This document shows, in pieces, positions 423 to 38,900 of a stretch of 64,000 nucleotides of DNA. Below the pieces are notes generated by a model. That model was not told the origin of the DNA. It worked only from the letters and a program-made list of their open reading frames with translations, and ran no database searches. How positions within the stretch are numbered: the stretch's first letter is position 1; each line of letters opens with the position of its first letter. The DNA is taken from the IMG/VR virus record IMGVR_UViG_3300042359_000646, positions 1 through 64,000 of that record. One strand, 5' to 3'. Position numbers and translations under genes: made by a program. This stretch comes from a virus.

Positions 423-2459
423 CTATTCGATTTCTATAGAGCGTGGAACTGTGTTGGGATTCTTGAATGCGTCTGGATTATCCTTGCGACGACTCTGTAA
501 ACGTTGGTTAGCTTGATAACGATTGACACCAGCGCCAGCAACTGAACCAACTCCACGACCTACACCAGCACCTAATCCAGTCATACCAAGTACTTTACCT
601 GCACGACCGACCAAACCTGTGCTTCTTCGTTGCTCTTCTGTTTCATTGATACCAGAACCTTCAAGAGCGCCTAGACCCGCACCAACAGCAGTACCGACAT
701 TAGCGGCATTGATTTGAGGAGATAGATTGCCAAAACGATTTGCAGCACCTCTAGCAACTTTTTGAGCGCCATTAACTAAACCAGTAGGAATGATGCCAAA
801 CGATGCAGACTTACGGATGCTTTTGCTATAACGAGCTTCGTTTTCTTGTTTCTTTTGTGCTAGTTTAGCAGCAAGCAATCCACCACCAGCCAGTGCAGTA
901 CCACCAACACCGATAGCAGTAAGTTTAGCCGCTTTATCGGAATCAAGTACTTTAGCAGCCCCTTGTAAAGCATCGTAAGTACCAGCAGCAGCAGCTTTAG
1001 CACCACCATCTAGTCTGGAACCAATAATAGGGATACCACCTAAAAATCTATCGCCAGCAGGAATTTTGGTAGCAGCTTTACGAACTGCTTTAGCTACGGG
1101 TTGCGTGATTAATTTACCTGCCGATGTCAAAGCGCTGTTGATTTGGTCGCCAATACCGAACTCAGCTTGTTGCTGGGGCTTGAGGAAGTTTGCAGACTTA
1201 CGGATTTTATTACTGTACTGACTATTTTCGTACATTGCGCCAGCTACAGCACCTAGTCCAGCCCCAGCAAGTCTTCCTCCTATCATACCTGCAACTGGAT
1301 AGAATGCTCTTTTTGCATTTCTTTTTGCAGTTGGTGTCTCAGCAAGTTCGTAAGTCATTCTGTCGTACTCTTCTTGTAAATCTTTTCTCTCAGGGTTTGT
1401 AAGAATTTGTTGGTACAAGTTATTGTACTTAGTTTCTAGGTCTGAATCAAGAGGAATAGGCTTACCTGCCAACTTTCTCCCTAGTAAACCTCCCCCTACC
1501 AACCCAGCCAACCCACCCACACCAGCAGCTATTTGAACTGGAGAAATCTCAAAACTGGCAGACTTACGAATTTCTTTATTGAAGTACTTGCCTACTGGCT
1601 TGCCCGATTCAATCATCGAGTTGATTTCCTTAACACCCATACTTGCTGGTACTTTAGGGTCACGCAGTTTCTTTTTCTGTATCTTGCCGCGCAAGGTAGA
1701 TTCGAGGCTGATAACCCCAGTATTGTTTTGAGGGATGTAGGTGCTACCGTGTTGGATTAGGCGTTGAATTGTAGCTGGGTCTTGGAAGTTTGCTGATTTA
1801 CGAATCATTTTACTTAGGTCTGTGGTTGAATTTACGTTTACTGTATTTGGGGGGATACCTCCACCTGCCTCTCTCCGAGTCGAATTACCTTTGCCTTTAA
1901 GTCTATCAAGCAATCCGCCAACTTTTTCTTGAGTTTTAGCTGCGATATTTCTTTCCCAACTTATAGCTTGGTCAATCAATGGAGTTGGTTCAGGTTGGGT
2001 AGACTGACGCTTAAGTTCTTCAGCCATCCTAGCTTCTCTCTGGTCAAGATTTGGAGCTACAACTTCTTGAACTTTATTTTTTACAGCTTCAACTTCTTTA
2101 TTAACCCTTTTAACAGCTTTACGAATGCCTCTAGGGTTAGCTGCTTCATGCTCAGCTACGACAGCTTCTCTACGTTGCAACTCCCTTTCTGGAGCCTTAG
2201 ATAAATTGTAGCGATTAACTGCGTATCCTGCACCAGCACCTAGTCCAGCACCTACAGTTGTGCTTGTCAGTACCTTACCTAATCGATTACCAACATTAGT
2301 AGCTTTTTTTTCTGCATCTGACTCCAAAACTCCAGAGCCTTGCAAAAGTCCCAGTCCACCACCAACACCAGCGCCAATTTTTACTGCGTTAGGTACGGCA
2401 GAAAGAAGTGAAGGTGCTGTAGCAAAGTTGGCTTTTTGTAATAGCGGTTTTTTATTCAT
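423..2459 (-). CDS. Virion polyprotein with four internal A-x-F sites and glycine-zipper segments
   Basis: A basic 678-residue protein divided by a repeated block I-R-K-S-A-[N/S]-F at about residues 219-225, 297-303, 419-425 and 548-554, with K-A-N-F at 9-12. I infer that a prohead protease cuts after each Phe, giving five fragments of about 80-210 residues. The first (about 28-83) and last (about 588-648) fragments share a glycine-zipper domain: Gly-rich helix, G-S-G, an acidic E-[S/T]-[D/E] patch, an R-x-G-K turn, then a second Gly-rich helix ending near N-R-Y. The middle fragments also have Gly/Ala-rich, membrane-like stretches (about 311-330, 390-410, 515-533). The start codon overlaps the upstream stop (TAATG at 2459), showing coupled translation in the operon that contains the protease. 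No enzymatic motif is seen. Function as internal, ejected head proteins is inference. Confidence 0.85.
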   Translation of the reverse strand: MNKKPLLQKANFATAPSLLSAVPNAVKIGAGVGGGLGLLQGSGVLESDAEKKATNVGNRLGKVLTSTTVGAGLGAGAGYAVNRYNLSKAPERELQRREAVVAEHEAANPRGIRKAVKRVNKEVEAVKNKVQEVVAPNLDQREARMAEELKRQSTQPEPTPLIDQAISWERNIAAKTQEKVGGLLDRLKGKGNSTRREAGGGIPPNTVNVNSTTDLSKMIRKSANFQDPATIQRLIQHGSTYIPQNNTGVISLESTLRGKIQKKKLRDPKVPASMGVKEINSMIESGKPVGKYFNKEIRKSASFEISPVQIAAGVGGLAGLVGGGLLGRKLAGKPIPLDSDLETKYNNLYQQILTNPERKDLQEEYDRMTYELAETPTAKRNAKRAFYPVAGMIGGRLAGAGLGAVAGAMYENSQYSNKIRKSANFLKPQQQAEFGIGDQINSALTSAGKLITQPVAKAVRKAATKIPAGDRFLGGIPIIGSRLDGGAKAAAAGTYDALQGAAKVLDSDKAAKLTAIGVGGTALAGGGLLAAKLAQKKQENEARYSKSIRKSASFGIIPTGLVNGAQKVARGAANRFGNLSPQINAANVGTAVGAGLGALEGSGINETEEQRRSTGLVGRAGKVLGMTGLGAGVGRGVGSVAGAGVNRYQANQRLQSRRKDNPDAFKNPNTVPRSIEIE

Positions 2460-3661: not shown

Positions 3662-3668
3662 AAAATTA

Positions 3669-4544
3669 TTAATACTTATTAGTTAATTGTACATCATCAG
3701 CTTGTCTCTGCTTTCTACGCTCGTCATAAGCCTTTTTAAGAGTGTAACCTCCATGAGCAAGCCCTATAGCATTAGCAGCAGCAACAGTCTCACCAAGTCT
3801 ACTTGTACCCATACTTGGCAATTGAACTGGAATAGGGCTGGCGGCTTGTCTTTCTACGTTTATATAAGGTTCGTGAAAGAATCCTTTAGAGTTTGACATC
3901 TGTTCTTCTAAAGCTGCCCTTCTGAGAAACGGTTTCGATATATCTTTTACAAAAGCTCGATTACCATTCTCGTCTGGCTTATCGTATAACTCACTATCAA
4001 GTAAGCCCAGTCTAATCGAATCTTGTATAGAATTGAGACGGGAATAAAAATTTTGCCTATTAGCCCCAGCAGTATATTTGTAAGTAACAGGCTCTCCATA
4101 CTCTTTGGTAATAACTAAAGAAGGATTGATTGAGCCGTTAGGGGCTGGTATTCTTTGCCTATTAGTTGCATCAGTAGTGAAATCCTGTAAACTTGGGTAT
4201 TTAGGTACATTGGAAATATCTGCATCTTCTCCAATTGCTCCCGCCGCTTTAGCCGATAACACCATAGGATGAGTGTGAGCGCCTTGAAGATGTTTTAGTC
4301 CATCCCACTTGTAAGGAAATCCCTTAATGTTTTGAAGGTCTAGCTTGTCATAAGGTATAGTCGTACTTACAGCCTCTCTAGATGGTAAATTTGTATGTTC
4401 TACAAAATTATGCCTCCCATAATTATCTAAGAAATCTGTTGCCCCATACCCCACTTCAGAGTTAGGATACTTATCCACTAAACCTTGCAAAGCATTTTCT
4501 GCATGGGCTTGTAAGTTTAAATAAAAGTTTGCAAAGTGCCTCAT
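3669..4544 (-). CDS. JAMM-like (HxHP...PSxxD) protein with an N-terminal M-R-H-F-A-N-F tag
   Basis: 291 residues beginning M-R-H-F-A-N-F, the putative packaging and cleavage tag. Residues 88-92 read G-A-H-T-H followed by P, and P-S-L-Q-D follows at 117-121. H-x-H-P...P-S-x-x-D is the zinc-binding signature of JAB/JAMM metalloproteases; the loop between the two halves is longer than the 7 residues of RadC or Rpn11, and Glu49 could be the upstream acid. Zinc peptidase activity is therefore plausible but not certain. A Gly/Ala-rich helix follows near 246-265 before a basic tail. The start ATG lies one base after the stop of the upstream gene. A virion-carried isopeptidase acting in the infected cell is inference. 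Confidence 0.8.
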   Translation of the reverse strand: MRHFANFYLNLQAHAENALQGLVDKYPNSEVGYGATDFLDNYGRHNFVEHTNLPSREAVSTTIPYDKLDLQNIKGFPYKWDGLKHLQGAHTHPMVLSAKAAGAIGEDADISNVPKYPSLQDFTTDATNRQRIPAPNGSINPSLVITKEYGEPVTYKYTAGANRQNFYSRLNSIQDSIRLGLLDSELYDKPDENGNRAFVKDISKPFLRRAALEEQMSNSKGFFHEPYINVERQAASPIPVQLPSMGTSRLGETVAAANAIGLAHGGYTLKKAYDERRKQRQADDVQLTNKY

Positions 4545-4545
4545 A

Positions 4546-5271
4546 TTACAGACCTAAACCTCTTCTGGCTATAGCCTTATCTAAAATTGTTTCAGCGCCT
4601 TCCCTACCTTGAACTTGTTTGTAAATATTCAATAGGTCTTTGCTTGACAAATCATCTAATTTATACTTGCCGCTTAAGTACTCCTCTGGTTTAACTCTAA
4701 AATTTTCTCGAAAATCAGGTCTTGCATTTTCTTTGAGGTAGTTGTAAGTATTGCCAATACCTGACTGAACACCCCTACCCAAATTACCAGCCACAGTTTT
4801 AATTCTTTCACCCGTCTCCGCAAATTGCTGCCCTCTTAAGTCAGGATTGCGGATGGCATCATAGATATTGTCTCTAGGTGTGTTAGGTCTATCTCTGTAT
4901 ACCTTTTGAACAGTGCCACGAAGATTTTGGTAAATGTCCGTACCACCCCCCATGCCCTCAGCTTGAGGGTAGCTAGAAACTGGATTACCAAATCTATCTT
5001 CTGTCCACTCTTTAAGGGAAGTAGCTGAACCACCTCTTAAGTTTTGAGGGATATCTTTAAAATCAAAGCCCCCTTTATCAAAGTCTTCAGGAGGAGTTAC
5101 AACTGAAGCCTGAATACCTCCAAAGTCTAGAGGTTCGCCCTTAAGCGCCCTATAGCCAGCATATCCACCAGCAGCAGCCAATCCGAGTAAGCCAGCACCA
5201 GCACCTAAACGTTGCTTGCCAGTAGAGTTCTTAATGTTGTTAATAATTCCGAAATTTACAAAATGTCTCAT
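4546..5271 (-). CDS. Tagged virion protein (M-R-H-F-V-N-F), glycine-zipper helix, unknown function
   Basis: About 241 residues from the ATG at 5271, which sits one base after the upstream stop; this start puts the tag M-R-H-F-V-N-F at the N-terminus as in sister genes, whereas a start four codons earlier would overlap that gene. Residues about 20-45 form a Gly/Ala-rich hydrophobic helix (L-G-A-G-A-G-L-L-G-L-A), a likely membrane segment. The rest is polar, Arg-rich and without a recognised domain. Val replaces the usual Ala in the tag, which would tell whether a protease tolerates Val at that place. Cargo of the same class as its neighbours. Confidence 0.8.
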   Translation of the reverse strand: MRHFVNFGIINNIKNSTGKQRLGAGAGLLGLAAAGGYAGYRALKGEPLDFGGIQASVVTPPEDFDKGGFDFKDIPQNLRGGSATSLKEWTEDRFGNPVSSYPQAEGMGGGTDIYQNLRGTVQKVYRDRPNTPRDNIYDAIRNPDLRGQQFAETGERIKTVAGNLGRGVQSGIGNTYNYLKENARPDFRENFRVKPEEYLSGKYKLDDLSSKDLLNIYKQVQGREGAETILDKAIARRGLGL

Positions 5272-5272: not shown

Positions 5273-6667
5273 TTATAGTGCATCCCAATTAACTTTTTTC
5301 AAACCTGTTCGCAGTACAGAGCGAACATCGCCATTCAAAGCTGAGTCGATGATTCGATTTTTAGAATCTTCATCAATGAACTGCCCTTGAGCTTTTGCCA
5401 AAAGTTGTTGACGCAACGACCTATCTTTAATTGAGCCAAGAGCAGCTAATTTCTGAGCTTCAAATACTTCTTCTTGTTGGTCGGCAGCTTTTTTCTTGTT
5501 GTAGATACCGTAAAGTGTACCTCCAATAGCTAAGCTTGGGGTAATTAGTGGGTCAAAAAAGTTTGCAACCTTGTCTGCGCCTCTAGAATATCGGGCAGTG
5601 CCTCTCCTTTTCTGCACTTCAGCTTGCTGGGCTGGAGTAAGCCTGTCAAGAGGATTATCCGTAATACCTTGCAGCAAAGGATTACCAGTAATATTAGCAG
5701 CTTCGCGAATCAAGTTGTCTGCATGGTATTGAGGACTATCAAAATAATTAGCTGCAAAATCTTGAGCATTCTTATCTTTAAGGCTATTTACCTTGTAGGC
5801 ATCAAGCGCTCTTTGTTTGTTGAGCTTAGATAGCAAACCATACCCAGCAACTAATGTACCTCCGATTGCAGCAAGTGGAAGTGCTTTTTCTTTTTTAATG
5901 AAGAAAGGGTTACGAACACCAATCTTAGGAAATGCGAAGTTGGCTGGTGTAACTAAAGGGGCAGCACTAAAAAAGTTGTATGGCACTCTCACCTGAGTTT
6001 GAGGTTGTTGGGCTTGCGCTTGACGTTGTTCCAATAGTAGATTCCTTTTTGCAATTATTTCGGCAACTTTGTCGCGATGAGCTTGAGCCTGAGCTTGTTT
6101 TTCTTTCTCAGCCTTCTTGTTTTTATATTGACCATAAGCTAATCCGCCCACTACTGCTGGAAATAACGTTCCAAAGGCTAGAGTACCTCTGATTTCGCTT
6201 GGAGTCATATCTCTATCAATAAGACCTCTAGCGACAGGGTTAATAACCTTATCTCGAATTGTATTGCCAACAGCAGTGGCAGCAGGTGTAACTAATGGGA
6301 TATTAAATCCGCCACCAGCGTTGCCTGACTGCTTTCCCCCATATTTTTCATATAAGGCATCTTTTTCATCTGCCGCAACTTTAGCTTTTTTAGCAGTTAC
6401 TTCTGCCCCTTTAGCTGTACCACGCTCGGTATCTGTAAGAGGTGGTGCTTTAGGAGGCTCAGAAGCCCGTCTTTCGCGTTCGCCAGCTACTTTAGCCCTG
6501 ACTTTCATTACAGCCTCTTCACTTAGCTGCTCCTGACGAGACTTACCGCGTAGACCACCGCTACCAGCTTTACGAGGAGTTCTAGTATCTCCCCAAGTTA
6601 CTCTGCCGCTACGAGTTTGACCTGTGAACTGCTGCTGGGGTGCAAACTCTGCTTTCAAACTTAGCAT
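5273..6667 (-). CDS. Virion protein with three A-x-F sites (multi-fragment)
   Basis: 464 residues with K-A-E-F at 5-8, P-A-N-F at 241-244 and V-A-N-F at 367-370, predicting three fragments. Fragment one is very basic, Lys/Arg/Ala-rich, with coiled coil near 180-222 (many Gln and Ala). Each fragment carries one hydrophobic Gly-rich stretch (about 162-178, 263-280, 378-388) followed by K-K-K or similar, as in a single-pass or zipper helix with a positive flank. The start overlaps the end of the protease gene by 7 bases, so the two are co-translated. No family recognised; probably internal head protein. Confidence 0.8.
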   Translation of the reverse strand: MLSLKAEFAPQQQFTGQTRSGRVTWGDTRTPRKAGSGGLRGKSRQEQLSEEAVMKVRAKVAGERERRASEPPKAPPLTDTERGTAKGAEVTAKKAKVAADEKDALYEKYGGKQSGNAGGGFNIPLVTPAATAVGNTIRDKVINPVARGLIDRDMTPSEIRGTLAFGTLFPAVVGGLAYGQYKNKKAEKEKQAQAQAHRDKVAEIIAKRNLLLEQRQAQAQQPQTQVRVPYNFFSAAPLVTPANFAFPKIGVRNPFFIKKEKALPLAAIGGTLVAGYGLLSKLNKQRALDAYKVNSLKDKNAQDFAANYFDSPQYHADNLIREAANITGNPLLQGITDNPLDRLTPAQQAEVQKRRGTARYSRGADKVANFFDPLITPSLAIGGTLYGIYNKKKAADQQEEVFEAQKLAALGSIKDRSLRQQLLAKAQGQFIDEDSKNRIIDSALNGDVRSVLRTGLKKVNWDAL

Positions 6668-7683
6668 TTAGCTGTGCCTCGTACATACTTCTTACCAGTC
6701 GTCGATAAATTGAACTGAGCCAGCTTGTTAGTACCACGTTTGTATGTGGTTTGTTGTTGTAGTTGTGGAATCGTCATACCACTCTCAGCACCGCCTTGTA
6801 ATTGAGACTGAGTTTGTGCTGCTTGGTCTTGCTGAGTCATTACGCCAGCCTGTGCTTGCTGGTTCATTTGTTGCATCAACTGGGTCAAACCGAGTAGTTC
6901 GATAATCTTGACACTGAAGCCATTCAATTGAGAGTAAATCAACTGTAACAAGACTTCAGGACTGTCGATATTAATCGCATCGTTGTCATAGGCATTTTTG
7001 AGCAAGAGCCACAATTTCTGGCAAATTTCGTTGTATTCGTCTTGAAGGTCGTCAATTGCTTGGTCATTAGCATCAAGCTCGTCCCAAGTTACCGCATTTC
7101 CGCTATCAGGAATACCTGAAAAGTTAGCGGTCATTGCTTTGCTTACCTTCTTGTGAAATAGTCCCATGTTGGGAATTGCGGGGATTGGCACTAGGCTGAG
7201 TTCCATGATGCGATGTTCGTTAGGGTCAAGGTTAAGTCCCATGCTCACACTTTTAACGCCACTACGCAACGCTTCGATACCTTTAGCTGCTGCAACCTTA
7301 ACACCAGATAAGAACATTCCAAGCTTACCTACTAAATGCTTGGAATTTTGGTTCGGTAAATCTGCTTCCGTAATTACTTTTGTGAATGCTCTTCCGTTAA
7401 TGCTTCCAATGGTATTTGGAATATCTTTTTTGTGGTCAGCACAAACAGGTACAACTGTGCCGCTATCGATAGCTCGGTTAGTATGTTCGACAATTGTATT
7501 GAGACGTTCAACACTGAAATCATGTTCAACATCAGTACTATCAGTAAACTTGCCTTCAGTGGCTACAAGAGCCGTGTACTCGTCTTTAATAGGAGTGCCA
7601 GAAACCAACACCTGCCCCAACTCAAAGTTGGCTCTTGATGCTGGGGCTTTAAAATAAGCAATATTAGGTGAGGTTTTTTTCAT
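6661..7683 (-). CDS. Prohead (capsid maturation) serine protease
   Basis: 340 residues. The middle matches the herpesvirus-assemblin-type prohead protease fold: a conserved His in V-C-A-D-H-K-K-D (His84) followed by I-G-S-I, then G-V-K-S-V-S-M-G (candidate nucleophile Ser147, possibly Ser145) and the E-L-S-L-V-P-I-P-A strand. Such enzymes process head proteins inside the prohead. Its own sequence has R-A-N-F at 17-20, T-A-N-F at 185-188 and L-A-Q-F at 321-324, so self-cutting after Phe would release a core of residues 21-188 and a Gln-rich piece 189-324 that may act as scaffold. It is the first gene of the leftward operon of A-x-F proteins, which supports it being the enzyme that reads that motif. 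Family assignment is from motif order; specificity is inference. Confidence 0.78.
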   Translation of the reverse strand: MKKTSPNIAYFKAPASRANFELGQVLVSGTPIKDEYTALVATEGKFTDSTDVEHDFSVERLNTIVEHTNRAIDSGTVVPVCADHKKDIPNTIGSINGRAFTKVITEADLPNQNSKHLVGKLGMFLSGVKVAAAKGIEALRSGVKSVSMGLNLDPNEHRIMELSLVPIPAIPNMGLFHKKVSKAMTANFSGIPDSGNAVTWDELDANDQAIDDLQDEYNEICQKLWLLLKNAYDNDAINIDSPEVLLQLIYSQLNGFSVKIIELLGLTQLMQQMNQQAQAGVMTQQDQAAQTQSQLQGGAESGMTIPQLQQQTTYKRGTNKLAQFNLSTTGKKYVRGTAKC

Positions 7684-15310: not shown

Positions 15311-16295
15311 TAGAAAATGACCCCATATTACGATTTTTGTGTAAAATAACTACTTTTATCTTAACATCATCCTTATATATCAGTAAGGTGTAGGTATTCT
15401 CTGGTTTGCTTATCTTAGGTAAATATCCGTTCTCAAATCTTATATCTGCATCTGCTTTGAAACTTACAATACCAGTAAAATTACTTAGATTGAGAGTGAA
15501 AAACTTAAGATGGTTGTTATTAATAACTAGTTGTATGTTCAGTACCTTCACTCCATTGGTGCAGACTACGTTAGTTTCGGAATGCTGGATAGTGTCAATA
15601 ATGAGACTTGATAGTGGCTGTGTTGCTGATATGTTTTGGCAGTTATATATTAGATTATTAAGTGATTTTCCATTGCAGTTAAGCGCACCTCCAAGTACAG
15701 GCGACCTATCCCACCTAATACTTAATGGAAGCACTTTTTTAGTGTTACCAAAACCCCCTTGATTAGTTGGAGCAAAATTAGATACTAGGCAAGCATAAGG
15801 TATCGGAGCTAACTCATACTCTATATCATCAAATTTACTTAGTGCCGAAGCTTCAGGGGCATAGTACCACTCTTCGTTTGAGGCATTATAAGTTAGTGCA
15901 TATTTGTTTGGCGCTACCGTATTTACTACATCACTCAGTTGTTTTATCTGATATTCTTTTCTGACCGTGTTAATAACTTGCCCCAAAGAGTTGACTGCCA
16001 AGTAAGTGCCAGCACCACCTATTACTACACCTGAAATATCTCTTAAGTAGATGTTAGGTACGGTTGTCGTTAGTTGCCCTTTGTAAAAACGAAGGATAGC
16101 TCCATCAGAGTATGTATAGTACTTAATAAAGTCTTTAAGGTTGCGTTTGCTATTACCTACAATTGCTACACTATTTTTATATGTCTTTGTGGTTATGTTT
16201 TTAGACATAAATCCTAAAAGCAAAGTGCCTACAGGAATCAGATTGTAGTCAGCAGTATTTTCATTTACTGTATGTGGAAATATGCTAACGCTCAT
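15300..16295 (-). CDS. Probable tail fibre protein
   Basis: 331 residues, beta-rich and rich in Asn, Thr and Ser. Residues around 115-155 carry the motif I-K-Q-L-S-D-V-V followed by a short W-Y-Y-A-P strand, like the L-S-D-V repeats of the next fibre gene upstream. Start overlaps that gene's stop by 4 bases and the end overlaps the next gene by 11. Most likely a short fibre or fibre tip. Confidence 0.65.
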   Translation of the reverse strand: MSVSIFPHTVNENTADYNLIPVGTLLLGFMSKNITTKTYKNSVAIVGNSKRNLKDFIKYYTYSDGAILRFYKGQLTTTVPNIYLRDISGVVIGGAGTYLAVNSLGQVINTVRKEYQIKQLSDVVNTVAPNKYALTYNASNEEWYYAPEASALSKFDDIEYELAPIPYACLVSNFAPTNQGGFGNTKKVLPLSIRWDRSPVLGGALNCNGKSLNNLIYNCQNISATQPLSSLIIDTIQHSETNVVCTNGVKVLNIQLVINNNHLKFFTLNLSNFTGIVSFKADADIRFENGYLPKISKPENTYTLLIYKDDVKIKVVILHKNRNMGSFSNGT

Positions 16296-18133
16296 GAGAA
16301 TATCTGATTACCAATACTGTGGTGAAAGTAATTGAACGACTGCGAGTGAACTACATCTTCAAGACCACCCAAGCGCCCAAACCTCATAGCTGGAGGCTGA
16401 TAAACTGCATCTGTATAGCGACCTTTACCTACCGTCAATCGAACTGAATCAAGTCGCCCAATCATACTTATAGTTGCCGAAGAGATAGCTAAATTAGTAA
16501 CTCCAGAATCAATCATAAGCCCTGTTTTTTCTGTCAACAATTGACCATCACAATGCACCTTGATGCTCGTCCCAACTCGCGTGACAGAAAAGAATATGTA
16601 GCGGCTGTTCTGGTATCTAAAAAGTCGGTTGGCGTTATCAAATGTGTAGGTGTTAGCGCCAATAACCAGAGTGAACGTGAGGTTTTGTGTACTGGTTGTT
16701 AATTGACCTGTATAACTAATCTTAAAGTTGGTTGAGTCAAAATATTTGTGTGTGACTGACGTAGTTGATTCGTAAAATGCTGTGTTTTGGTATTGCAGAT
16801 AAAATTCAAATGTGAAGTCGCCTGTGACATTGATAGTGGCAGCAGGGGTGATGGTAATGGTGTCGATGCTGTTATCGAACTCTGCAATTTGGTTAGGGAT
16901 GCCGAAGGTCGTGATGTCAGTATCTTGTTGCGTTACCCCTAATATTGCAACTGGAACTGATAAGCTACTCTTGTCCTCATACCAAAGCTTGCTGCGCCAT
17001 GATTGCGCCTCAAAGTCGAGTAATAGTTTGACATACTTGAAATAGTCGTCGTATAGTTTAGGAGCCGCCAGTAGTTGTGCTTGGTTATCTACGATGTCAT
17101 ATCGCCATGCAGGTATTCCGCCTTGCCCCAGCGCAGCTATATTAAGTGCAGTTGCTGTGACGTAAGTAGTAATTGTTCCCCCGACGTTTTGAACCAGTAC
17201 TGTGATGATGTCAGTTTTGCCATTGCCTGATAGCTTGATAGCTCTACCATCTTCGTACTTGACGTTAGTTAGACCGCCAATGAGAATCTGACCAGTGTTT
17301 TGCCGTATCTCAATCAACATCACGGCTGCTTGATTATTTGCTGGCGCGATTTGTGGCAACAAGATGCACTGTGATTGAGTTTCTACGGCTACACCCGTTA
17401 CAATCCAATAATCCGCAGTAACATAAGGCAGATTAATAGTGGGAGCATTACCCACCACTGTACCAATATTAGTAAAAGAATTATAAAGATAATTGCCATT
17501 GGCGTTAAGGTTTGCACCCAATGTCGGGTTAGGGTCACGAACAATTTGCAGGTCTTGATTGCTCCAGACAGTCCCGCCAACATCAAGTGAAAGTATTTGG
17601 AATCGGTGTGGGTCGTCTACTAATCCTGTAGTTGGAGTTATCTCAACGTCATCAAGTTCATTTACTAAGTTGATTCTATTGCGAGGCTTCCATCTTGCTG
17701 CGGTTGCGTCCCAATACAATACTTGATTGTTTTCTAGTGTGCTTAAATCTACGTCTGTAAGCTGTGACAATGCATAATCTGGACTTGCATTCACATAGGC
17801 TTCACGAAGCGCGTCATAGCGCAAATACTGTCCATTTGTGGGACTGTTTATTTCTACATCACTAAGCCTAGTGAGACTGCCAATCTGTGATGTTGCTGTA
17901 AAACCGTTGCCTTGCTTGACTAGGAAATCGCCTTCACGCGCATTAGTTATATTGATATCTTGAAGCTCCGTAAACTTCTGAACCCCCTTGCCAATCTCCA
18001 GTACTTTGCCAGTGAAGTCCTTCGTATAAAGAACTGCTTGCTCATCTTTAAGCGCTAAGACAAGTTCACCAACAGCAATTTCGTGTGGTGCTGGTAGTGA
18101 GTCGCTGTTTAAGGTGTGTTTAAGAATTGACAC
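16292..18133 (-). CDS. Tail fibre with L-x-D-V repeats and C-terminal LamG-like domain
   Basis: 613 residues from a GTG start overlapping the upstream stop by 14 bases. N-terminal 180 residues contain four or more repeats of the phage fibre type: L-[T/S/D]-D-V-[D/E]-[L/I], then about 12 residues and a G-Q-Y-L-x-Y-D or N-Q-V-L-Y-W-D strand. The C-terminal part (about 420-590) looks like a LamG/concanavalin-A fold: G-D-F-T-F-E-F-Y-L, a R-Y-I-F-F-S-V-T-R-V strand, then I-G-R-L-D-S-V-R-L-T-V-G. Probable receptor-binding fibre. Confidence 0.75.
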   Translation of the reverse strand: MSILKHTLNSDSLPAPHEIAVGELVLALKDEQAVLYTKDFTGKVLEIGKGVQKFTELQDINITNAREGDFLVKQGNGFTATSQIGSLTRLSDVEINSPTNGQYLRYDALREAYVNASPDYALSQLTDVDLSTLENNQVLYWDATAARWKPRNRINLVNELDDVEITPTTGLVDDPHRFQILSLDVGGTVWSNQDLQIVRDPNPTLGANLNANGNYLYNSFTNIGTVVGNAPTINLPYVTADYWIVTGVAVETQSQCILLPQIAPANNQAAVMLIEIRQNTGQILIGGLTNVKYEDGRAIKLSGNGKTDIITVLVQNVGGTITTYVTATALNIAALGQGGIPAWRYDIVDNQAQLLAAPKLYDDYFKYVKLLLDFEAQSWRSKLWYEDKSSLSVPVAILGVTQQDTDITTFGIPNQIAEFDNSIDTITITPAATINVTGDFTFEFYLQYQNTAFYESTTSVTHKYFDSTNFKISYTGQLTTSTQNLTFTLVIGANTYTFDNANRLFRYQNSRYIFFSVTRVGTSIKVHCDGQLLTEKTGLMIDSGVTNLAISSATISMIGRLDSVRLTVGKGRYTDAVYQPPAMRFGRLGGLEDVVHSQSFNYFHHSIGNQIFS

Positions 18134-20566: not shown

Positions 20567-21287
20567 CATAGAACAAAAGCTGCAATCACTACGCAATTTG
20601 AATAGTGAACAGCCCGAAATGCAAAAGATAACAATACATAAGCTCAGCAAGACAAGCTGGGTGAACTGGACGGATATCAAACGTGCATATATTCTTGGCA
20701 AGCGTATTGAGGAGTTCGACGAGGAAACTGGGCATACGAGAATCTGGTCTGAGAGCTATAACTTGCAAGAGCTTGCTGAGGAGTTTGGTGTTGGAGTTAG
20801 TCAGCTAACAAAGAAGTCGGCTATCGAGAGTTGGGGCGGATTGCGTGATAGTTACTTGGCGCGAGTACAGGAGGAGGCGCTTGGTACTGAGCTTGGCTAT
20901 TTCACTAATGAGGAGAGCGAGACTGAGGCGAACTCGCTGGCTATCATTCGTAAGGGCATGAAGCTGATTAACTTAGGGCTTGAGCAAGAGTATGGCGACT
21001 TACTTGAGGCTGTGGACGCTGACGGTGATGTGGACTTGCGTGAATATAGTAAGGTCAACCTGAAGGCGCTGACTGAAGGCATCAAGGGGCTAAAAATGTT
21101 GCATGAGATGCATGGTAAGGTGATGGAGCAAGCACCCAAAACTAATCAAGAGCTATTGGAGACACTGAATCGTAGTAAGACAGTCGAGAGGCTGAAGAAT
21201 CCTAAAGAGCGCGAGAAACTGCAAAAGGAGCTACAAAAGAAATTGCAACTCCTTAGTCAGATAGAGGAGGATGATGATGAGGATTAG
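20553..21287 (+). CDS. terS: Probable small terminase subunit
   Basis: 244 residues. Residues about 35-90 look like a helix-turn-helix: I-K-R-A-Y-I-L-G, then Y-N-L-Q-E-L-A-E-E-F-G-V-G-V-S-Q-L and W-G-G-L-R-D-S-Y. A long helical, coiled-coil-like part follows (about 95-230), ending in an acidic tail E-E-D-D-D-E-D. This is the usual plan of small terminases, which bind the packaging site and feed DNA to TerL. Divergent from terL, which is unusual since the two are normally in one operon. Assignment rests on architecture and position, not on a clear family match. Confidence 0.6.
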   Translation: MSNNNIEQKLQSLRNLNSEQPEMQKITIHKLSKTSWVNWTDIKRAYILGKRIEEFDEETGHTRIWSESYNLQELAEEFGVGVSQLTKKSAIESWGGLRDSYLARVQEEALGTELGYFTNEESETEANSLAIIRKGMKLINLGLEQEYGDLLEAVDADGDVDLREYSKVNLKALTEGIKGLKMLHEMHGKVMEQAPKTNQELLETLNRSKTVERLKNPKEREKLQKELQKKLQLLSQIEEDDDED

Positions 21288-22234
21288 TCGTCGATATTGT
21301 AACGGCGATATCTTTTTGCAATTGCATATCCATCTTTTAAAGCTTCTGTGGCTATACTTCCTGTCAAACCTAGCCCTCCACCGACAACGCCGCCAACACC
21401 AGCATTACCGACTAGTTTACCTAAGCGCCCTAATCCTGTAGTTCTAGCTTTCTCTTCTTCTGATTCACCGACACCAGAACCTTTAACTAGTCCAGCAGCA
21501 GCGCCAATACCAGCACCAATTTGTACTCCTCTGTCCCGTGCAAACCCTTGACCTACTGCTTTAGCTGCCCTACCAGCATCTTGAATGTTGTGCCAATATG
21601 GACGGGCTTTATCTACCATTGCAGGTAGAGGATTTGTGAAACCGAAATTAGCGAAATGTTGCATCTGTTTTTGTTGTGTAAAGTTTATGCTGCTATTATA
21701 ACCTGTAGTAAATGGCTTCCCTAGCCCGTTCTCATGGTGTAGATTTTTTAATAGTTTCTCGTCATAAAAATCGTTGATTGGTTGGAATGAATCGTTGTCT
21801 ATCAAGTAGGCTTTTCGTTTGCTTGGGTTGGGTCTAACTATGTTGCCAGAGTGGAGGTCTGTGTGTCCAAGGTAGTTTTGTCTGAGCGCGTTTTGTTGTC
21901 GTCCAATTTGGGAGCCAAGTTTATATTGTTCTTTTGGTGACATTGCATCTAAGTCAACGGCGTTACCACCATAGCCTTGAGCATAGCTATGTAAGTTTCC
22001 TTTTTCTGTATACCCACTGACGGGTGGAGTTATTCTTTGAGGAAGCGAGGCGACCTGATTGGCTGTATCAAACTCTTGGCGAGAGTATTTTTCAGCACTT
22101 TTGCGATATTGTGGTTCGGCGTTTACGTTGTTGTCGATGCGTACCTTGTTTGTAGCAGGGAAGTGTAGTACACGCTTCTCTGGTGTGAGGAGGAGTGGTT
22201 TGGCGTTGCGGATTCGGGCGAAGTTAGATTCCAT
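21284..22234 (-). CDS. Mini-kinase fused through M-Q-H-F-A-N-F to a glycine-zipper module
   Basis: 316 residues in two parts. Part one begins M-E-S-N-F and contains a kinase catalytic loop, H-T-D-L-H-S-G-N-I (His124, Asp126, Asn131), followed after 12 residues by Y-L-I-D-N-D-S-F (Asp146/Asp148 as metal-binding Asp), as in APH/Kdo-type and other small kinases. The N-lobe before it is short or missing a clear P-loop and Lys. Part two starts at 191 with M-Q-H-F-A-N-F, exactly the tag that begins other genes here, then a glycine-zipper domain (about 238-292) with G-S-G-V-G-E-S-E-E-E and T-T-G-L-G-R-L-G-K. An in-frame tag suggests either post-translational cutting or fusion of two cargo genes. Its start overlaps the upstream gene by 11 bases. 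Confidence 0.8.
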   Translation of the reverse strand: MESNFARIRNAKPLLLTPEKRVLHFPATNKVRIDNNVNAEPQYRKSAEKYSRQEFDTANQVASLPQRITPPVSGYTEKGNLHSYAQGYGGNAVDLDAMSPKEQYKLGSQIGRQQNALRQNYLGHTDLHSGNIVRPNPSKRKAYLIDNDSFQPINDFYDEKLLKNLHHENGLGKPFTTGYNSSINFTQQKQMQHFANFGFTNPLPAMVDKARPYWHNIQDAGRAAKAVGQGFARDRGVQIGAGIGAAAGLVKGSGVGESEEEKARTTGLGRLGKLVGNAGVGGVVGGGLGLTGSIATEALKDGYAIAKRYRRYNIDD

Positions 22235-22841
22235 AACGACCTTCCAACTTTATTTTTTTAAAGTCCAACTCTTGTGGCTCAGGTTTTACACCTCTAGCTT
22301 TCCTAATGCCCCTTCCTCTTTTGGGCGCGGCTGCTTCTCTTAAGGAACTAATTACTTTGCTCACATCATCTTGAGTTGCTGGAGTATTGTTGTAATACCT
22401 TAGTCTATATACTTCCTCATTTCTGTGTTGTGTAGCTAATTGTTCAACAGGACTTAGTTCTTTTTTTCGTATGGCATTACCTATGACAGTTAAAGGTTGC
22501 CTATTTTTTCTACCTATACCATCAATACCTAAACCAATTTTTTCAACTTCTTGGTTGTATCTGTGGTCTGCCAAATCTTTTTTACCTGATGGATTTAAGT
22601 GTAGGAAGTCTTGAGGTCTTTCTTTGTACTCCACTTTCGGTAAATATTTATTTAGACTGGGTTTAATTTTACTATGTGTAAGTCCGTCGTGAATCTCCAT
22701 AGCTGTGTTAGTAAAAGCGGGATGCTCGTTTGTCAAGCCAGACCTTTGTAGAAATAATTGGTTGGTATTTGTTAAATCTAATTTTTGCATTTTTTGCAAG
22801 TTTTGTAGATTTACTTTACCAAAGTTTGCGAAGTGTTGCAT
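22224..22841 (-). CDS. Tagged cargo protein (M-Q-H-F-A-N-F), unknown domain
   Basis: 205 basic residues beginning M-Q-H-F-A-N-F-G. A Leu/Gln/Asn-rich stretch follows the tag, then a polar region with L-T-H-S-K near 56 and a Lys/Arg-rich C-terminus (P-K-R-G-R-G-I-R-K-A-R). No catalytic motif is evident to me. Lies between the kinase fusion and the nuclease in the second cargo cluster; a DNA- or RNA-associated protein is possible from charge alone. Confidence 0.8.
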   Translation of the reverse strand: MQHFANFGKVNLQNLQKMQKLDLTNTNQLFLQRSGLTNEHPAFTNTAMEIHDGLTHSKIKPSLNKYLPKVEYKERPQDFLHLNPSGKKDLADHRYNQEVEKIGLGIDGIGRKNRQPLTVIGNAIRKKELSPVEQLATQHRNEEVYRLRYYNNTPATQDDVSKVISSLREAAAPKRGRGIRKARGVKPEPQELDFKKIKLEGRYGI

Positions 22842-22864: not shown

Positions 22865-23239
22865 TTAGAATACCTTATAGAGAATATCGGGATTGGCAGC
22901 CATGATTCTTTTACTTTCTTCGGATAACTTAGATTTGTCTGAAGTGCAGAAGTAGAGCTTGGTGTTGGAACCGTAGTGTTGAGCATACATTCTCAATTGT
23001 CCGATAGCTGCTTTGAGGTGATAGCTGCTATTCTCGCGCTTACACTCTACTACATGATGAACAATCTCTCCAGTGGGCTTATATTCTTTTACAAGGCAAT
23101 CTACGCGACCAAATGGATTTTTTACTTCCCTTTGGACTACATAGCCGCTAGAGCGAAAAAACGAGGCAATTTTGTCGCGGGTGACTGACTCCAACTCTAA
23201 CTTAGGTTTACTTTTTTTAATAGACACTGTACTGACCAC
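22865..23239 (-). CDS. PD-(D/E)XK-type nuclease
   Basis: 124 residues with the restriction-like core: a helix I-A-S-F-F-R-S-S-G-Y, then F-G-R-V-D-C-L-V (acidic residue near 46), H-H-V-V-E-C-K-R (E-x-K near 67-69) and the helix A-A-I-G-Q-L-R-M-Y-A-Q. This set matches PD-(D/E)XK nucleases including Holliday resolvase-like proteins. It carries no A-x-F tag although it is embedded among tagged genes, so it may act in the cell rather than be packaged. GTG start at 23239, or a later GTG at 23227; the first overlaps the JAMM-like gene by 23 bases. Confidence 0.72.
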   Translation of the reverse strand: MVSTVSIKKSKPKLELESVTRDKIASFFRSSGYVVQREVKNPFGRVDCLVKEYKPTGEIVHHVVECKRENSSYHLKAAIGQLRMYAQHYGSNTKLYFCTSDKSKLSEESKRIMAANPDILYKVF

Positions 23240-23948
23240 CCAGTTCCTTTATCTGGTTATTTATGTCTGGGATACTTTGTTCATAAGCGTATTTGTAGTT
23301 TTCAAGTCCTCTAGGGAGTTCTTTAGTCTGTTTATAACTAATTACTGATGTCTTAGCTTTTCTCCCTGCTGGTGTTGATAATATGAGGCTCTCAAATGGC
23401 TTACTACTTGCACGAGGGTCATCACGTTTTACTGAGTAGTCTTGACGGTTGCTGTAATCTAATCTCAAGTCGGCAATACTAGGTATAGTTGCCAAGCTAT
23501 TTTTAGGTGATGTGGGATGAGTGTGGATGTTGCCAATGTAGTCTTTGTTCAGATAGCGACCTTCAGTTTTTATTTCACTACCACTTAAACGTAGACCTTT
23601 TTTATCTCCTTCTACTATATTACCAACTACTAACCTCCCATTACGATAATTTGCATCTTTCCCTGTCGGGCGACCTAATTTGACTCCATGTTCATTCCTA
23701 TAACCTTGACCTAGCTTGGCTAGCTTACGCTGGACAGAAACAAGAACCTCATTATCTTGTGGGTGTGTCATCACTTCGTTGCGGCTGATGTAGTAAGGAC
23801 TATCAATGGGTGTTGGCTGACCTCTACGAGCAGTTTGAATGCGGTCAACGTAAGAAGAGTTTGGTGCGCCTTGACCGAGAAGTGTAGCTTGCTTTTGGCG
23901 CGTAAATGACTTACGTGCGCTGTTACTGAAAGAAGCGAAATGTTGCAT
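23217..23948 (-). CDS. Tagged JAMM-like metalloprotease (HTHP...PSIAD)
   Basis: About 243 residues from the ATG at 23948. This start gives M-Q-H-F-A-S-F at the N-terminus and lies 4 bases after the upstream stop, whereas an earlier ATG would overlap it. Residues 141-160 hold I-H-T-H-P-T-S-P and, after a loop, I-P-S-I-A-D, the H-x-H-P...P-S-x-x-D signature of JAB/JAMM zinc proteases; Glu125 or Glu129 could be the catalytic acid. The loop is about 5 residues longer than in RadC. Proteins of this fold remove ubiquitin-like modifiers or cut peptides. Packaging and action after injection are inference from the tag. Confidence 0.82.
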   Translation of the reverse strand: MQHFASFSNSARKSFTRQKQATLLGQGAPNSSYVDRIQTARRGQPTPIDSPYYISRNEVMTHPQDNEVLVSVQRKLAKLGQGYRNEHGVKLGRPTGKDANYRNGRLVVGNIVEGDKKGLRLSGSEIKTEGRYLNKDYIGNIHTHPTSPKNSLATIPSIADLRLDYSNRQDYSVKRDDPRASSKPFESLILSTPAGRKAKTSVISYKQTKELPRGLENYKYAYEQSIPDINNQIKELGGQYSVY

Positions 23949-23952: not shown

Positions 23953-24168
23953 TTAGCTCTTGATACGTTCGATGAGCTGGACGCTGACATTCTTTTTCTG
24001 CAACGCCTTGGGCATGAGAGGCGGTTTAGCGATACTCTTCAGCATTTTCTTGTCAGCTTTTTTGCCCGTCATGCCTTTTAGTTCTTCTAGCTTAGGGGGA
24101 AAGATGTCAGGCAGCTTGGGTGAGGGCTTCTTGGCTGCTGTAGGTGTGGTGGTGTCGTCGGGGGTCAT
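23953..24168 (-). CDS. Small basic Pro/Lys-rich protein
   Basis: 71 residues, about a quarter Lys, with a Pro-rich first half (T-P-T-A-A-K-K-P-S-P-K-L-P) and a C-terminal helix. No tag. Overlaps the next gene upstream by 1 base and is followed 4 bases later by the JAMM-like gene, so it belongs to the same unit. Could be a DNA-condensing or adaptor peptide; nothing is recognised. Confidence 0.65.
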   Translation of the reverse strand: MTPDDTTTPTAAKKPSPKLPDIFPPKLEELKGMTGKKADKKMLKSIAKPPLMPKALQKKNVSVQLIERIKS

Positions 24169-24977
24169 TAGTTTTTAGCGTTCCTTTGTTCTTCGTATCT
24201 CCTGTTAGAGATTTGGCGTAGTTTGTTTTCGGTTTTTGGCGGTAGTGGGGTAAGCCCTGCTTCCAACCCCCCTGTTAATTTTCTAGCTTCCCACTCGTCA
24301 TACTGCTGTCCATTATATTTAGGGTAATTGTCTGTAAAGCTTTGTCTAGCTTGGTATTTGTCATATAAGGAAGGTTTATCTGGTAACTTTGGTTTTTGAG
24401 GTGGTAGTCTAGGTTTAACACCTTGCATTCTTTTTATGAAGTCCTCTCTGAATTGTTGATTAGAAACATTTTCAATTTCATAGCCTAAATGTGGCATAGC
24501 TGCAAGTCTTTCAGGGGCTGTATTTTTCTTTTTAATATAGCTATGGATTACGTCTGGTGTGATATTAGGAGGTACACTGTCAGTAAATCTAACGTGCGCT
24601 CTATTTCTGGGGTCGCTTAGAGTATCTGCCATTAATTCAATAGGTGTATTCACTCTTTCAGGTACGTTAGGGACTAACGGCATTGTAGTGTTCATACCTG
24701 TAGTTTTAGCTAAGCTGCCTTCGGGGAAATACTGGTTGGGGTCTTTTCCTACTAATGTTTTGTAATGTTGTTTAGTTATGGGGGTGTGTTGAATGGCATC
24801 GTGCCTTGTTAAACTAGTATTGTCTGTAGGTTTTAGACCACTAAGACTCATAAAACTATCTGATTTGTTTATACCCCTTAAATTCCTAACGCTCAATTCT
24901 CTAGCGGCGTTGATGTTTTTGTCACTTAAACGGATAAATGAAGCTAAAGGCGACTGAAAGGAGGCGAAGTGTTGCAT
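24168..24977 (-). CDS. Tagged cargo protein (M-Q-H-F-A-S-F, second L-A-S-F), unknown
   Basis: 269 residues. The tag M-Q-H-F-A-S-F at 1-7 is followed within seven residues by P-L-A-S-F (10-14), giving two possible cuts. The body is polar, with a Pro/Lys-rich stretch (P-R-L-P-P-Q-K-P-K-L-P) near 190-202 and a basic C-terminus. No catalytic motif recognised. First gene of the second cargo operon, just downstream of a candidate promoter at about 25,013. Confidence 0.8.
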   Translation of the reverse strand: MQHFASFQSPLASFIRLSDKNINAARELSVRNLRGINKSDSFMSLSGLKPTDNTSLTRHDAIQHTPITKQHYKTLVGKDPNQYFPEGSLAKTTGMNTTMPLVPNVPERVNTPIELMADTLSDPRNRAHVRFTDSVPPNITPDVIHSYIKKKNTAPERLAAMPHLGYEIENVSNQQFREDFIKRMQGVKPRLPPQKPKLPDKPSLYDKYQARQSFTDNYPKYNGQQYDEWEARKLTGGLEAGLTPLPPKTENKLRQISNRRYEEQRNAKN

Positions 24978-26626: not shown

Positions 26627-26980
26627 CTATTTTGCCCAATCATCAGGTAAATCTAATTCAAAAGGAAAAGCCTTATTAAGCGCATCTGCATCAGCTTTTT
26701 TCTGACGAGCATATTTTGCGCCAAGCTGACCTCCTTTTTGCATTGCATAGCCACTAGCTGCTCCTGTACTTGCACCAAGAGCGCTGTTACCTACAATCTT
26801 ACCTAAACGTTCAAGACCCGTTGTTTTAGCCTTTTCTTCTTCTGTCTCTAGGATGCCTGTACCATGAATTGCTCCTCCTATAGCTCCACCCGCAGCTAGA
26901 CCTTTAATAGGATTATTTTGTAAATAGCCCATTCCTTGTTTGGCTACTTGTTCGATTCCGAAATTTGCGAAGTGTTGCAT
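26627..26980 (-). CDS. Tagged single glycine-zipper protein
   Basis: 117 residues that consist only of the tag M-Q-H-F-A-N-F and one glycine-zipper domain: G-L-A-A-G-G-A-I-G-G-A-I-H-G-T-G, an acidic L-E-T-E-E-E, T-T-G-L-E-R-L-G-K, then G-A-S-T-G-A-A-S-G-Y and a basic/acidic tail. The same domain ends the kinase fusion and the 678-residue protein. Two Gly-rich helices around a charged turn suggest a hairpin that inserts in a membrane, as proposed for ejected channel proteins of other phages. This is the minimal form of the module. Confidence 0.82.
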   Translation of the reverse strand: MQHFANFGIEQVAKQGMGYLQNNPIKGLAAGGAIGGAIHGTGILETEEEKAKTTGLERLGKIVGNSALGASTGAASGYAMQKGGQLGAKYARQKKADADALNKAFPFELDLPDDWAK

Positions 26981-28762: not shown

Positions 28763-29056
28763 ATGAGTAGAATTTCATTAGAACATGAATGCTATCCAAC
28801 TAACAAAGATAACTTTGCTAATAGATTGGATAGAGGTGAGGTTTCAGCTAATTATGATGCTGAAATTAAAGAGCTAGAAAATAAGCTGGCTTTGTTGAAA
28901 GCAGATAGAAAAGAGTATTCTACTAAAGAGCTTATTCTATCTGATGTCAAGTCATTATTTGGTTTTGTAATTAAAAATGGTGATTGTGATGAATCATACG
29001 ACAAGCTACAAAAGACTATAGAGCGCTTAGTAGTACGGTTTGAGAGTTTGCATTAA
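28763..29056 (+). CDS. Small coiled-coil protein, unknown
   Basis: 97 residues with a helix rich in Glu, Lys and Leu at about 30-55 (E-I-K-E-L-E-N-K-L-A-L-L-K). Preceded by ATAGGAGATAAGGC, a good ribosome binding site. First gene of the rightward block. Confidence 0.65.
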   Translation: MSRISLEHECYPTNKDNFANRLDRGEVSANYDAEIKELENKLALLKADRKEYSTKELILSDVKSLFGFVIKNGDCDESYDKLQKTIERLVVRFESLH

Positions 29057-29122
29057 CTAAGCTGACAGCACAGCTAAGACTAGCACTAACGCTATGTCTA
29101 TTACTACAAAGGAGTAGGAACT

Positions 29123-29389
29123 ATGAGTGAGGGATACGTTTATGTCTCGCAAAAGTCTAAAATTATAGAGAGACTCTCTGCAATTCGTGCAGAGTTACTA
29201 GATATTTCAGAACAACTCACAGAAGATATGTTTTGGAATAGTAAAACTTGTGCTAGAGGTATTGAACTCTATAATCAGGGGCTTGGCAACCCTAAAGGCT
29301 CTATAGAGATGCAACACTATGATTCTGTCTCTAAGATTAGAAATAGTGCTGATTTTGAGTATGTTATTGATAGGTTGAAAACCTTGTAA
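29123..29389 (+). CDS. Small helical protein, unknown
   Basis: 88 residues. Helical N-terminal half (S-A-I-R-A-E-L-L-D-I-S-E-Q-L), preceded by AAGGAGTAGG. The spacing to its neighbours leaves room for separate leaders. No family recognised. Confidence 0.6.
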   Translation: MSEGYVYVSQKSKIIERLSAIRAELLDISEQLTEDMFWNSKTCARGIELYNQGLGNPKGSIEMQHYDSVSKIRNSADFEYVIDRLKTL

Positions 29390-29643
29390 CATTATGGGAT
29401 AAAGGGCGTACCCTTATTCAACCCTATCGAATAATAAAATATTCCCTAAAAAATCTCAAACTAGCTATAGGCTAGGAATTATTATGTATCTAATACAAGA
29501 CTTGATAAGCTACTACGGTATAGATAACATCATGTAGCACTGACTATTCCTAACAGCATAGTTTTTTACTGTGCTGTCAAGAGTATTCACCTAAAGTGCA
29601 TATCTCTACTAACCGCTAAACTTGCCTATAGGGTAAGGAATCA
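29390..29643. other. 254-base gap with no clear gene
   Basis: AT-rich. A 17-codon frame at 29484-29537 has AGGAATTATT upstream but is too short to support. The sequence around 29560-29640 (GCATAG, GCTGTCAAGAG, GGGTAAGGAATC) resembles the leader upstream of 30,128. Otherwise nothing recognisable. Confidence 0.35.
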
Positions 29644-29985
29644 ATGAACAAACGTGAAATTATAGCCGAAGGGCTACAACGTGGCTACAGCATCGCAAAG
29701 TCGATAGACCTTGTAGATATAGGTGACTATGGCGATGGTCAATTTCTAGATGAACGTAAAAGAGTCAAAATCACCTCTGATAATTGGCTAGAGTTTCATA
29801 CTAACTATGCCTATGAATGCGAGAGTGATGGTAGACAGTTTAGCCCTTTTGAGTTCTTGGCTAACGCTATTAACGAGACGGAAGATAATCCAAGGGTTAA
29901 GTTTGAACCTTGGCTAGAATTTGATGAGGCAATCGGGCGGGGTATCAATAAAGCCTTGAGAGAACGATGGAAGTCTATTCGATAG
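29644..29985 (+). CDS. Unknown small protein
   Basis: 113 residues, mixed charge, with F-E-P-W-L-E-F-D-E near 90-98 and a basic end. Upstream GGGTAAGGAATCA supplies the ribosome binding site. No motif recognised. Confidence 0.65.
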   Translation: MNKREIIAEGLQRGYSIAKSIDLVDIGDYGDGQFLDERKRVKITSDNWLEFHTNYAYECESDGRQFSPFEFLANAINETEDNPRVKFEPWLEFDEAIGRGINKALRERWKSIR

Positions 29986-30007
29986 GTTTTACATCTACGG
30001 CTAACGC

Positions 30008-30053
30008 TTGACATTTTTCCTAACTGTCTGTAAGCTATCAACTTATGGACAGT
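30008..30053 (+). promoter_or_regulatory. Promoter-hairpin element, copy 1
   Basis: TTGACA (30008-30013) is followed by TTTTCCTAACTGTC. ACTGTC (30023-30028) and GACAGT (30048-30053) form an inverted repeat around TAAGCT. A related element lies at 32631-32671, where the repeat is ATCTGTC/GACAGAT. The changed bases still pair, so the palindrome is conserved as an operator or RNA hairpin near the transcription start. Confidence 0.5.
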
Positions 30054-30127
30054 CAAGAGCAATGTAGCTATCGCTTATGGCGCTCTTTTCACTCACTTAC
30101 TGTAAATAAAACAGGAATTAAAATCTC

Positions 30128-38422: not shown

Positions 38423-38434
38423 GGTAGGTCTTCA

Positions 38435-38460
38435 GAGGGAGTGATACTAGAGCCTCCCTC
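38435..38460 (+). terminator. Hairpin after the DUF932 gene
   Basis: GAGGGAG (38435-38441) pairs with CTCCCTC (38454-38460). It is followed by ACTCTACAATTTTG, not a clean T run, so it may be a weak terminator or a processing site. Confidence 0.45.
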
Positions 38461-38496
38461 ACTCTACAATTTTGTTACTAACTAAGGAAATTAATC

Positions 38497-38745
38497 ATGT
38501 CAGAAAAAGAGATTGAGTTTGAACGTAGTGTGTATCGTAATACTGCATCTGTAGTCTTGGCTCTAGCTGTCTATGCAACTACATTAGGTATCGCGCACCC
38601 CGTCCTCATTTACAGTATCGGTATTGTGCTTGAAGCTTTCGTGGTTGGTAGTATCAGAGGCTTTCGTCAAGCTATTAAAGAAAACCGAGAGTTGCCAGAA
38701 GGTTTCACTCGTGACCCCATAACTGGAAAAACGCGCCCTTTCTAA
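38497..38745 (+). CDS. Small membrane protein
   Basis: 82 residues with one or two hydrophobic helices (about 15-32, V-V-L-A-L-A-V-Y-A-T-T-L-G-I-A, and 35-52). Preceded by AAGGAAATTAATC. C-terminal part charged. No family recognised. Confidence 0.6.
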   Translation: MSEKEIEFERSVYRNTASVVLALAVYATTLGIAHPVLIYSIGIVLEAFVVGSIRGFRQAIKENRELPEGFTRDPITGKTRPF

Positions 38746-38757
38746 CATCTTCAGGCA

Positions 38758-38856
38758 ATGTCAATAAGTCCTATCACAGAACCCGAAAAAGATGACTTAC
38801 CCGTTCGCGTAATTGGCAAGAGTCGCAGTTACCCGTATCCAACAAAGAACGGTTGA
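38758..38856 (+). CDS. Very short peptide gene
   Basis: 32 codons with CAGG a few bases upstream. The peptide is polar and ends S-Y-P-Y-P-T-K-N-G. Fits the compact packing but has no other support. Confidence 0.35.
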   Translation: MSISPITEPEKDDLPVRVIGKSRSYPYPTKNG

Positions 38857-38900
38857 CGGCTGCTATAGGTTCTCTTTCTTTTCTATAAGGAGCAATCATT

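Follow-up and report, generated by a model that had tools for sequence, protein, structure and literature searches.

A kinase-like module joined through a leader-like tag to a glycine-zipper module in a relative of the Pseudanabaena siphophages PA-SR01 and Pam2

Bacteriophage T4 packages IPI, IPII, IPIII and Alt by means of a short N-terminal capsid targeting sequence (CTS), which gp21 removes (PMC9026906). The cut made by T4 gp21 follows L/I-x-E, and that of SPN3US gp245 follows A-x-E (PMC9026906, PMC7411985). Polyvalent proteins (Iyer et al. 2017) carry kinase, helicase and JAB domains, and their kinases, which are predicted to be packaged and injected, are minimal, lack the C-terminal subdomain and take part in modular recombination (PMC5512222).

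The locus compared here with these systems lies in a window of 64,000 nucleotides (the whole stretch of DNA analysed), part of the 142,452-bp virus record IMGVR_UViG_3300042359_000646. The virus is read as one of the cyanobacterium Pseudanabaena and is a relative of the cultured Pseudanabaena siphophages PA-SR01 and Pam2; its terminase was 84% identical to that of PA-SR01 and 82% to that of Pam2. The open reading frame (ORF; 21284..22234, minus; 316 aa from its ATG to the stop codon) comprised a kinase-like module (residues 1-190; 21665..22234, minus), an internal leader or cargo tag, MQHFANF (residues 191-197; 21644..21664, minus), with a proposed cut after F197, and a glycine-zipper module (residues 198-316; 21287..21643, minus). 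The last of these is a repeated module, with paralogous copies at 26627-26980 (start at 26980) and inside 423-2459. The layout described by the earlier note, with H-x-D-x4-N at residues 124-131, I-D-N-D at 145-148 and a glycine-zipper tail, was confirmed, and no other family matches were obtained for the ORF.

Direct orthologues sharing this division into three parts were Pam2 gp189, annotated as casein kinase I-like protein 1 (ON014754; 55% identity of the kinase gene to the window version), and PA-SR01 QIW88440, annotated as a hypothetical protein (59%). Nine IMG/VR contigs held further homologues of the kinase gene, which made 11 with PA-SR01 and Pam2. No convincing homologue was found in phage records besides these two phages, and a peptide-pattern search of representative bacterial and archaeal genomes returned no relative. 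The order PD-(D/E)XK-like gene, fused kinase gene, opposite-strand gene and terminase was conserved. The internal tag and the leader system were absent from the annotations of Pam2 and PA-SR01 and from the searched passages of the papers on both phages, and the string MQHFANF had no match in a literature text search.

All 11 homologues carried F-[TS]-Q-x-x-[QN]-M-[QR]-H-F-[AT]-[NDH]-F at the joint, and the tag codons varied synonymously among them, so that conservation is at the protein level. Three relatives (L009, L013 and L014) had the tagged glycine-zipper gene alone, without the kinase, in the same slot and with the same neighbours, and this stand-alone gene began with MKHFANF or MQHFTHF. 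The DNA of L009 was 85% identical to that of L005, over 516 bp starting exactly at the tag ATG (L009 6112, L005 8565). The kinase-less genes and this onset of homology strongly supported a module fusion, with gain or loss of the kinase precisely at the tag; of the two origins offered by the earlier note, a fusion of two cargo modules was thus borne out. Within the family, quite different zipper modules followed the one type of joint in different kinases. The idea of a promoter and tag moving together as a mobile 5' DNA cassette was rejected because the DNA upstream mostly differed between tagged genes and the tag codons varied synonymously.

Residues 1-190 were 54-62% identical to the versions in other phages. 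The catalytic-loop signature H-x-D-x(4)-N was present as HTDLHSGN (residues 124-131; 21842..21865, minus), with H124, D126, H128, G130 and N131 invariant in 11/11 homologues. The metal-binding aspartate of the DFG position, expected some 15-20 residues past the catalytic asparagine, corresponded to D146 within I/V-D-N (IDND, residues 145-148; 21791..21802, minus), and both D146 and N147 were invariant (11/11). E54 (22073..22075, minus), a candidate alpha-C glutamate, was likewise invariant in all 11, and K30 (22145..22147, minus), a candidate beta3 lysine, was kept in 10/11 and replaced by R in Pam2. There was no Gly-rich loop: residues 1-70 of the window protein contained no glycine. The earlier note had considered the N-lobe reduced; it was small, at 60-90 residues before the catalytic region, and lacked the Gly-rich loop, but it was not missing, and it was instead most of the C-lobe that was lost, as the module ends about 45 residues past D146.

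Among NCBIfam profiles, L010, which of the homologues is nearest to the window protein, matched Bud32 (E=3.3e-5) and LanKC (1.5e-3) and, more weakly, Kdo kinase (0.014) and UbiB (0.038). The Kdo kinase profile matched the window protein itself at 0.042, Pfam RIO1 matched L002 at 5.4e-4, and the ABC1 profile matched 7/10 members (best 2.3e-3). The Bud32, LanKC, RIO, ABC1/UbiB and Kdo-kinase matches were weak and fell in register on one common segment of the N-terminal module. All profile scores were below the curated cut-offs (Bud32 23.7 bits vs. 246, RIO1 20.1 vs. 22, ABC1 17.5 vs. 22.9), and the window protein scored worse in kinase profiles than its relatives. With Bud32, a six-frame search of five phage genomes gave a single match in three of them, always in the fused kinase gene, and no match in two. 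PDB sequence searches, whether by the family profile or by individual members, returned no kinase. AlphaFold models of the full ORF and of the L002 kinase module, built from nine-row alignments, had pLDDT of 38 and 40 (unusable), and Foldseek gave no match with E below 1 for the second. Kinase identity, for which the earlier note had proposed structure prediction as a check, was hence favoured by concordant, if weak, profiles and by invariant catalytic residues, and received no confirmation from AlphaFold. Secondary structure predicted with low confidence (two strands, a long helix, a later helix and two short strands) gave only a hint, being consistent with the N-lobe of a kinase, alpha-C, alpha-E and a beta7-beta8 hairpin.

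Residues 1-190 are read here as a minimal atypical kinase-like domain. The serious alternative, considered rather unlikely, is that the module is a pseudokinase or a non-catalytic nucleotide-binding domain acting as a structural head or ejection component. The missing Gly-rich loop and C-lobe, I-D-N-[AD] in place of DFG and K30R in Pam2 would agree with it, but the phosphotransfer residues (HxD, N and the metal-binding D) were invariant while the rest diverged to about 55% identity, and Bud32 and RIO are active without every canonical kinase feature. The kinase-like reading places the module nearest the Bud32/RIO/ABC1/Kdo kinases, with which it shared small size, HxD...N, the metal-binding D and the weak in-register profile matches, and from which it differed in scoring below the family cut-offs, in I-D-N-[AD] and in the absent Gly-rich loop, its fold being putative. 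With the polyvalent proteins it shared a minimal kinase without C-terminal subdomain and modularity. Those are single giant polypeptides, whereas here the modules occurred as individual tagged proteins or were fused in pairs, with a proposed cut site. The fused gene was not classed as a polyvalent protein because Kinase-PolyVal (PF18762) gave no match at E<=10 in five phage genomes and because the ORF held only one enzymatic module, besides the glycine zipper. The module itself began with M-x(2-4)-F-A-R-I, in which a variable stretch precedes an invariant F; this may be a degenerate leader belonging to the module.

The internal MQHFANF was, as the earlier note had stated, identical to the starts of separate genes: it formed the exact beginning of the ORFs starting at 22841 (22224..22841, minus, 205 aa) and 26980 (26627..26980, minus; the stand-alone glycine-zipper gene paralogous to the fused C-terminal module). 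One residue off was MQHFASF, at the starts of a probable JAMM-like gene with HTHP...S-x-x-D (23217..23948, minus; start at 23948, not 23990) and of a gene starting at 24977 (24168..24977, minus), in which a double leader, MQHFASFQSPLASF, preceded IRLSDKN. In the head cluster, MRHFANF began a further JAMM-like gene with HTHP...S-x-x-D (3669..4544, minus) and MRHFVNF its neighbour (4546..5271, minus). The 142-kb record contained 7 to 9 occurrences of the degenerate tag, vs. 0 for a reversed-pattern control. In these phages, M-[QRKEI]-[HK]-[FS]-[ATVS]-[NSDHTE]-F headed about 15 otherwise unrelated protein families, comprising glycine zippers, two JAMM-like families, a helicase and several uncharacterised families. 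Pfam matches of the JAMM-like pair (23217-23948 and 3669-4544) were weak (Prok-JAB 0.03-0.12; DUF4329 0.02 in relatives of the first).

The tagged helicase, of DEAD/SNF2 type, was located in the head cluster of PA-SR01 (L024; 25081-26877) and of L067 (5549-6961), and matched the helicase part of phrog_62, a further likeness to the polyvalent proteins. In PA-SR01 an N-terminal module ending in ARYIKFQ was followed by an internal MEHFANF and then by the helicase. In L067 the helicase started with MKHFADF, and a similar sequence, RYIKFQ, preceded a glycine-zipper-like gene starting with MKHFANF. The helicase by this arrangement showed modular behaviour like that of the kinase gene. It is possibly a packaged helicase, comparable with P1 DarB.

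Leaders of 7 residues and leaders of 13-17 residues ended in A-[NSDH]-F directly before identical mature sequence. With a slash between leader and mature sequence, the pairs were MQHFANF/ALGDTELGNL vs. MQHFAHFNSQNANF/ALGDTELGNL (over a longer mature stretch, MQHFANF/ALGDTELGNLNRQA vs. MQHFAHFNSQNANF/ALGDTELGNLNRQA), MQHFANF/IRLSDKN vs. MQHFTHFATTTANF/IRLSDKN (longer, MQHFANF/IRLSDKNINAARKK vs. MQHFTHFATTTANF/IRLSDKNINAARKK), MQHFANF/GYVKQANKQLKR vs. MQHFTHFRSFEADF/GYVKQANKQLKR, and EKAVADF/QDPATIQRLIQHGS vs. KMIRKSANF/QDPATIQRLIQHGS. A junction test on raw six-frame segments gave 96 pairs for A-x-F vs. at most 55 for other tripeptides, many of the 96 stemming from the untranslated upstream sequence of one gene (ARF/KVQIKDS); because of this inflation, the evidence was restricted to the pairs listed above.

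In the head cluster of three related genomes, ANF was observed 13, 10 and 12 times vs. 1.0, 0.6 and 0.8 expected from shuffling, a 13-16 times over-representation of a motif picked after inspection of the data, and elsewhere it reached 0.9 to 1.5 times expectation. The control motifs A-x-Y, A-x-L and F-x-A showed no enrichment. Proteome-wide enrichment of A-x-F was not significant, the signal being confined to the head cluster, and outside head genes single A-x-F tripeptides also arose by chance. Among the proteins with the most A-x-F were a polyprotein, the maturation protease and the scaffold.

The polyprotein (423..2459, minus, 678 aa) had an N-terminal QKANF and four internal IRKSA[NS]F tags, which are repeats of the variant K-x-I-R-K-S-A-[NS]-F, and the modules after the tags included glycine zippers. 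Comparable modules were in separate ORFs in PA-SR01, one of which started with MRKSANF, and at its IRKSANF tags the polyprotein is split or fused as the kinase gene is at its joint. The head maturation protease (Mu I-like; 6661..7683, minus) contained ANF/AQF in its middle and close to either end. The N-terminal and middle ANF sites were kept despite indels in the neighbouring residues, and AQF near the C-terminus was kept in all but one sequence. The orthologue of the protease in PA-SR01 matched phrog_976, head maturation protease (E=4e-5), and is Mu I-like by HHpred (PF10123) in the publication on PA-SR01 (PMC10286775). In the major capsid protein (MCP; PA-SR01 28812-30062 and relatives), LA[ED]F lay about 13 residues from the C-terminus and, with one exception among the sequences compared, was kept although the tail is variable, so that C-terminal processing is possible. 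For PA-SR01, virion proteins were studied by SDS-PAGE only, the bands being matched by size.

Judged by its anatomy, the A-x-F leader would fit the head-protease pattern of T4 and SPN3US. Shared with the T4 CTS were a short conserved leader on unrelated proteins that form an exchangeable set, packaged in T4 and putatively so here, the ending of that leader in a tripeptide recurring in scaffold and protease, and an encoded head maturation protease (here 6661-7683). The differences were A-x-F here vs. L/I-x-E in T4, a siphophage with a Mu-I-like protease, and the position of the tag, which is N-terminal in T4 and here was also internal, joining two modules. The head propeptides of SPN3US and phiKZ (A-x-E or S/A-x-E) shared the P3 alanine and a P1-specific tripeptide (PMC7411985, PMC9026906), and the cutting of many head proteins there, ejection proteins among them, resembles the proposed A-x-F system. 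P1 would be F here, leaders were of 7-17 residues vs. about 110-130, and the phage group is unrelated.

The reading preferred, with a probability of roughly 0.6, is that two packaged-cargo modules were recently fused, that an A-x-F leader targets proteins to the capsid and is removed by the maturation protease, and that the kinase is delivered. The tag would be a short leader, with A-[NSDHE]-F as its end, that directs proteins into the prohead; the fusion would be made late and enter the prohead by way of its tag as a kinase-glycine-zipper precursor. Inside the head, the Mu-I-like maturation protease would cut after F197, giving fragments of about 22 kDa (kinase) and about 12 kDa (glycine zipper). 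At infection both fragments would exit together with the DNA; the glycine zipper, probably membrane-active, would help in crossing membranes (envelope or thylakoid), and the kinase would modify host targets early in infection. The tag would serve first for loading into the head and then as a cut site, and the host would receive a kinase encoded by this gene. The sequence evidence covers the first half of this proposed delivery chain only: for a precursor that is packaged into the head and cleaved at the tag, close to the second option of the earlier note, the behaviour of the A-x-F leaders and the enrichment in head genes argued indirectly. To call it a new form of injected effector was too strong, because the polyvalent-protein kinases and the T4 CTS are precedents.

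It is unlikely that the tag is instead an uncut docking motif for scaffold, portal or DNA, with kinase and zipper remaining one packaged two-domain protein. Such a motif would account for conservation of the whole tag beyond the need of a bare A-x-F (M, H, F and F invariant in the fused genes) and for the wider context K/R-x-I-R-K-S-A-N-F of the internal copies. However, leaders of several lengths stopped exactly at A-x-F before mature sequence, the protease itself carries such sites (ANF/AQF) at its middle and towards both termini, and docking and cutting are united in the T4 leader (PMC9026906).

Quite improbable is M191 as an alternative translation start, by which the gene would yield the fusion and, in addition, a free tagged glycine zipper. 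A second start gives T4 gene 21 its short form, and here the ATG was kept in 11/11 fused genes and sister phages begin their zipper gene exactly there. No ribosome-binding site was present upstream of 21664, although stand-alone tagged genes likewise had no clear Shine-Dalgarno sequence; those genes mostly lay directly behind an upstream stop, whereas M191 does not. H193, F194 and F197 were as conserved as M191, so that the M need not be kept for initiation. The least probable alternative, tagged proteins as tail or baseplate ejection components and not capsid cargo, would suit the tagged genes near tail genes (PA-SR01 46923, Pam2 37932-41141), but two tagged genes and the IRKSANF polyprotein sat between the maturation protease and the scaffold/MCP, and the A-x-F enrichment fell in the head cluster.

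Extended beyond the one gene, packaging by an A-x-F leader suggests, tentatively and at somewhat less than even odds, a modular cargo delivery in PA-SR01-like cyanophages. A leader of 7-17 residues, N-terminal or inside a polyprotein, would load changing enzymes (mini-kinase, JAMM-like proteins, helicase) together with glycine-zipper membrane partners, the protease would separate them, and the tag joints would be recombination points for cargo swapping. If true, the tag would predict from sequence alone which uncharacterised phage genes are packaged and injected, and would be a siphophage counterpart of the T4 CTS with its own cut motif. It could also be used as a short tag for loading proteins into cyanobacterial phage heads, and which enzymes enter a cyanobacterium alongside phage DNA would become a directly testable question.

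A PD-(D/E)XK nuclease-like gene (22865-23239; PDDEXK_9, E=4e-7) lay directly upstream of the slot for tagged-gene insertion, was present in the relatives seen and was duplicated in L015. In the structural region of Pam2 (L026), the gene at 2064-3905, with a window orthologue at 16292-18133, bears in GenBank the name of an unrelated bacterial toxin, which looks like an automatic misannotation.
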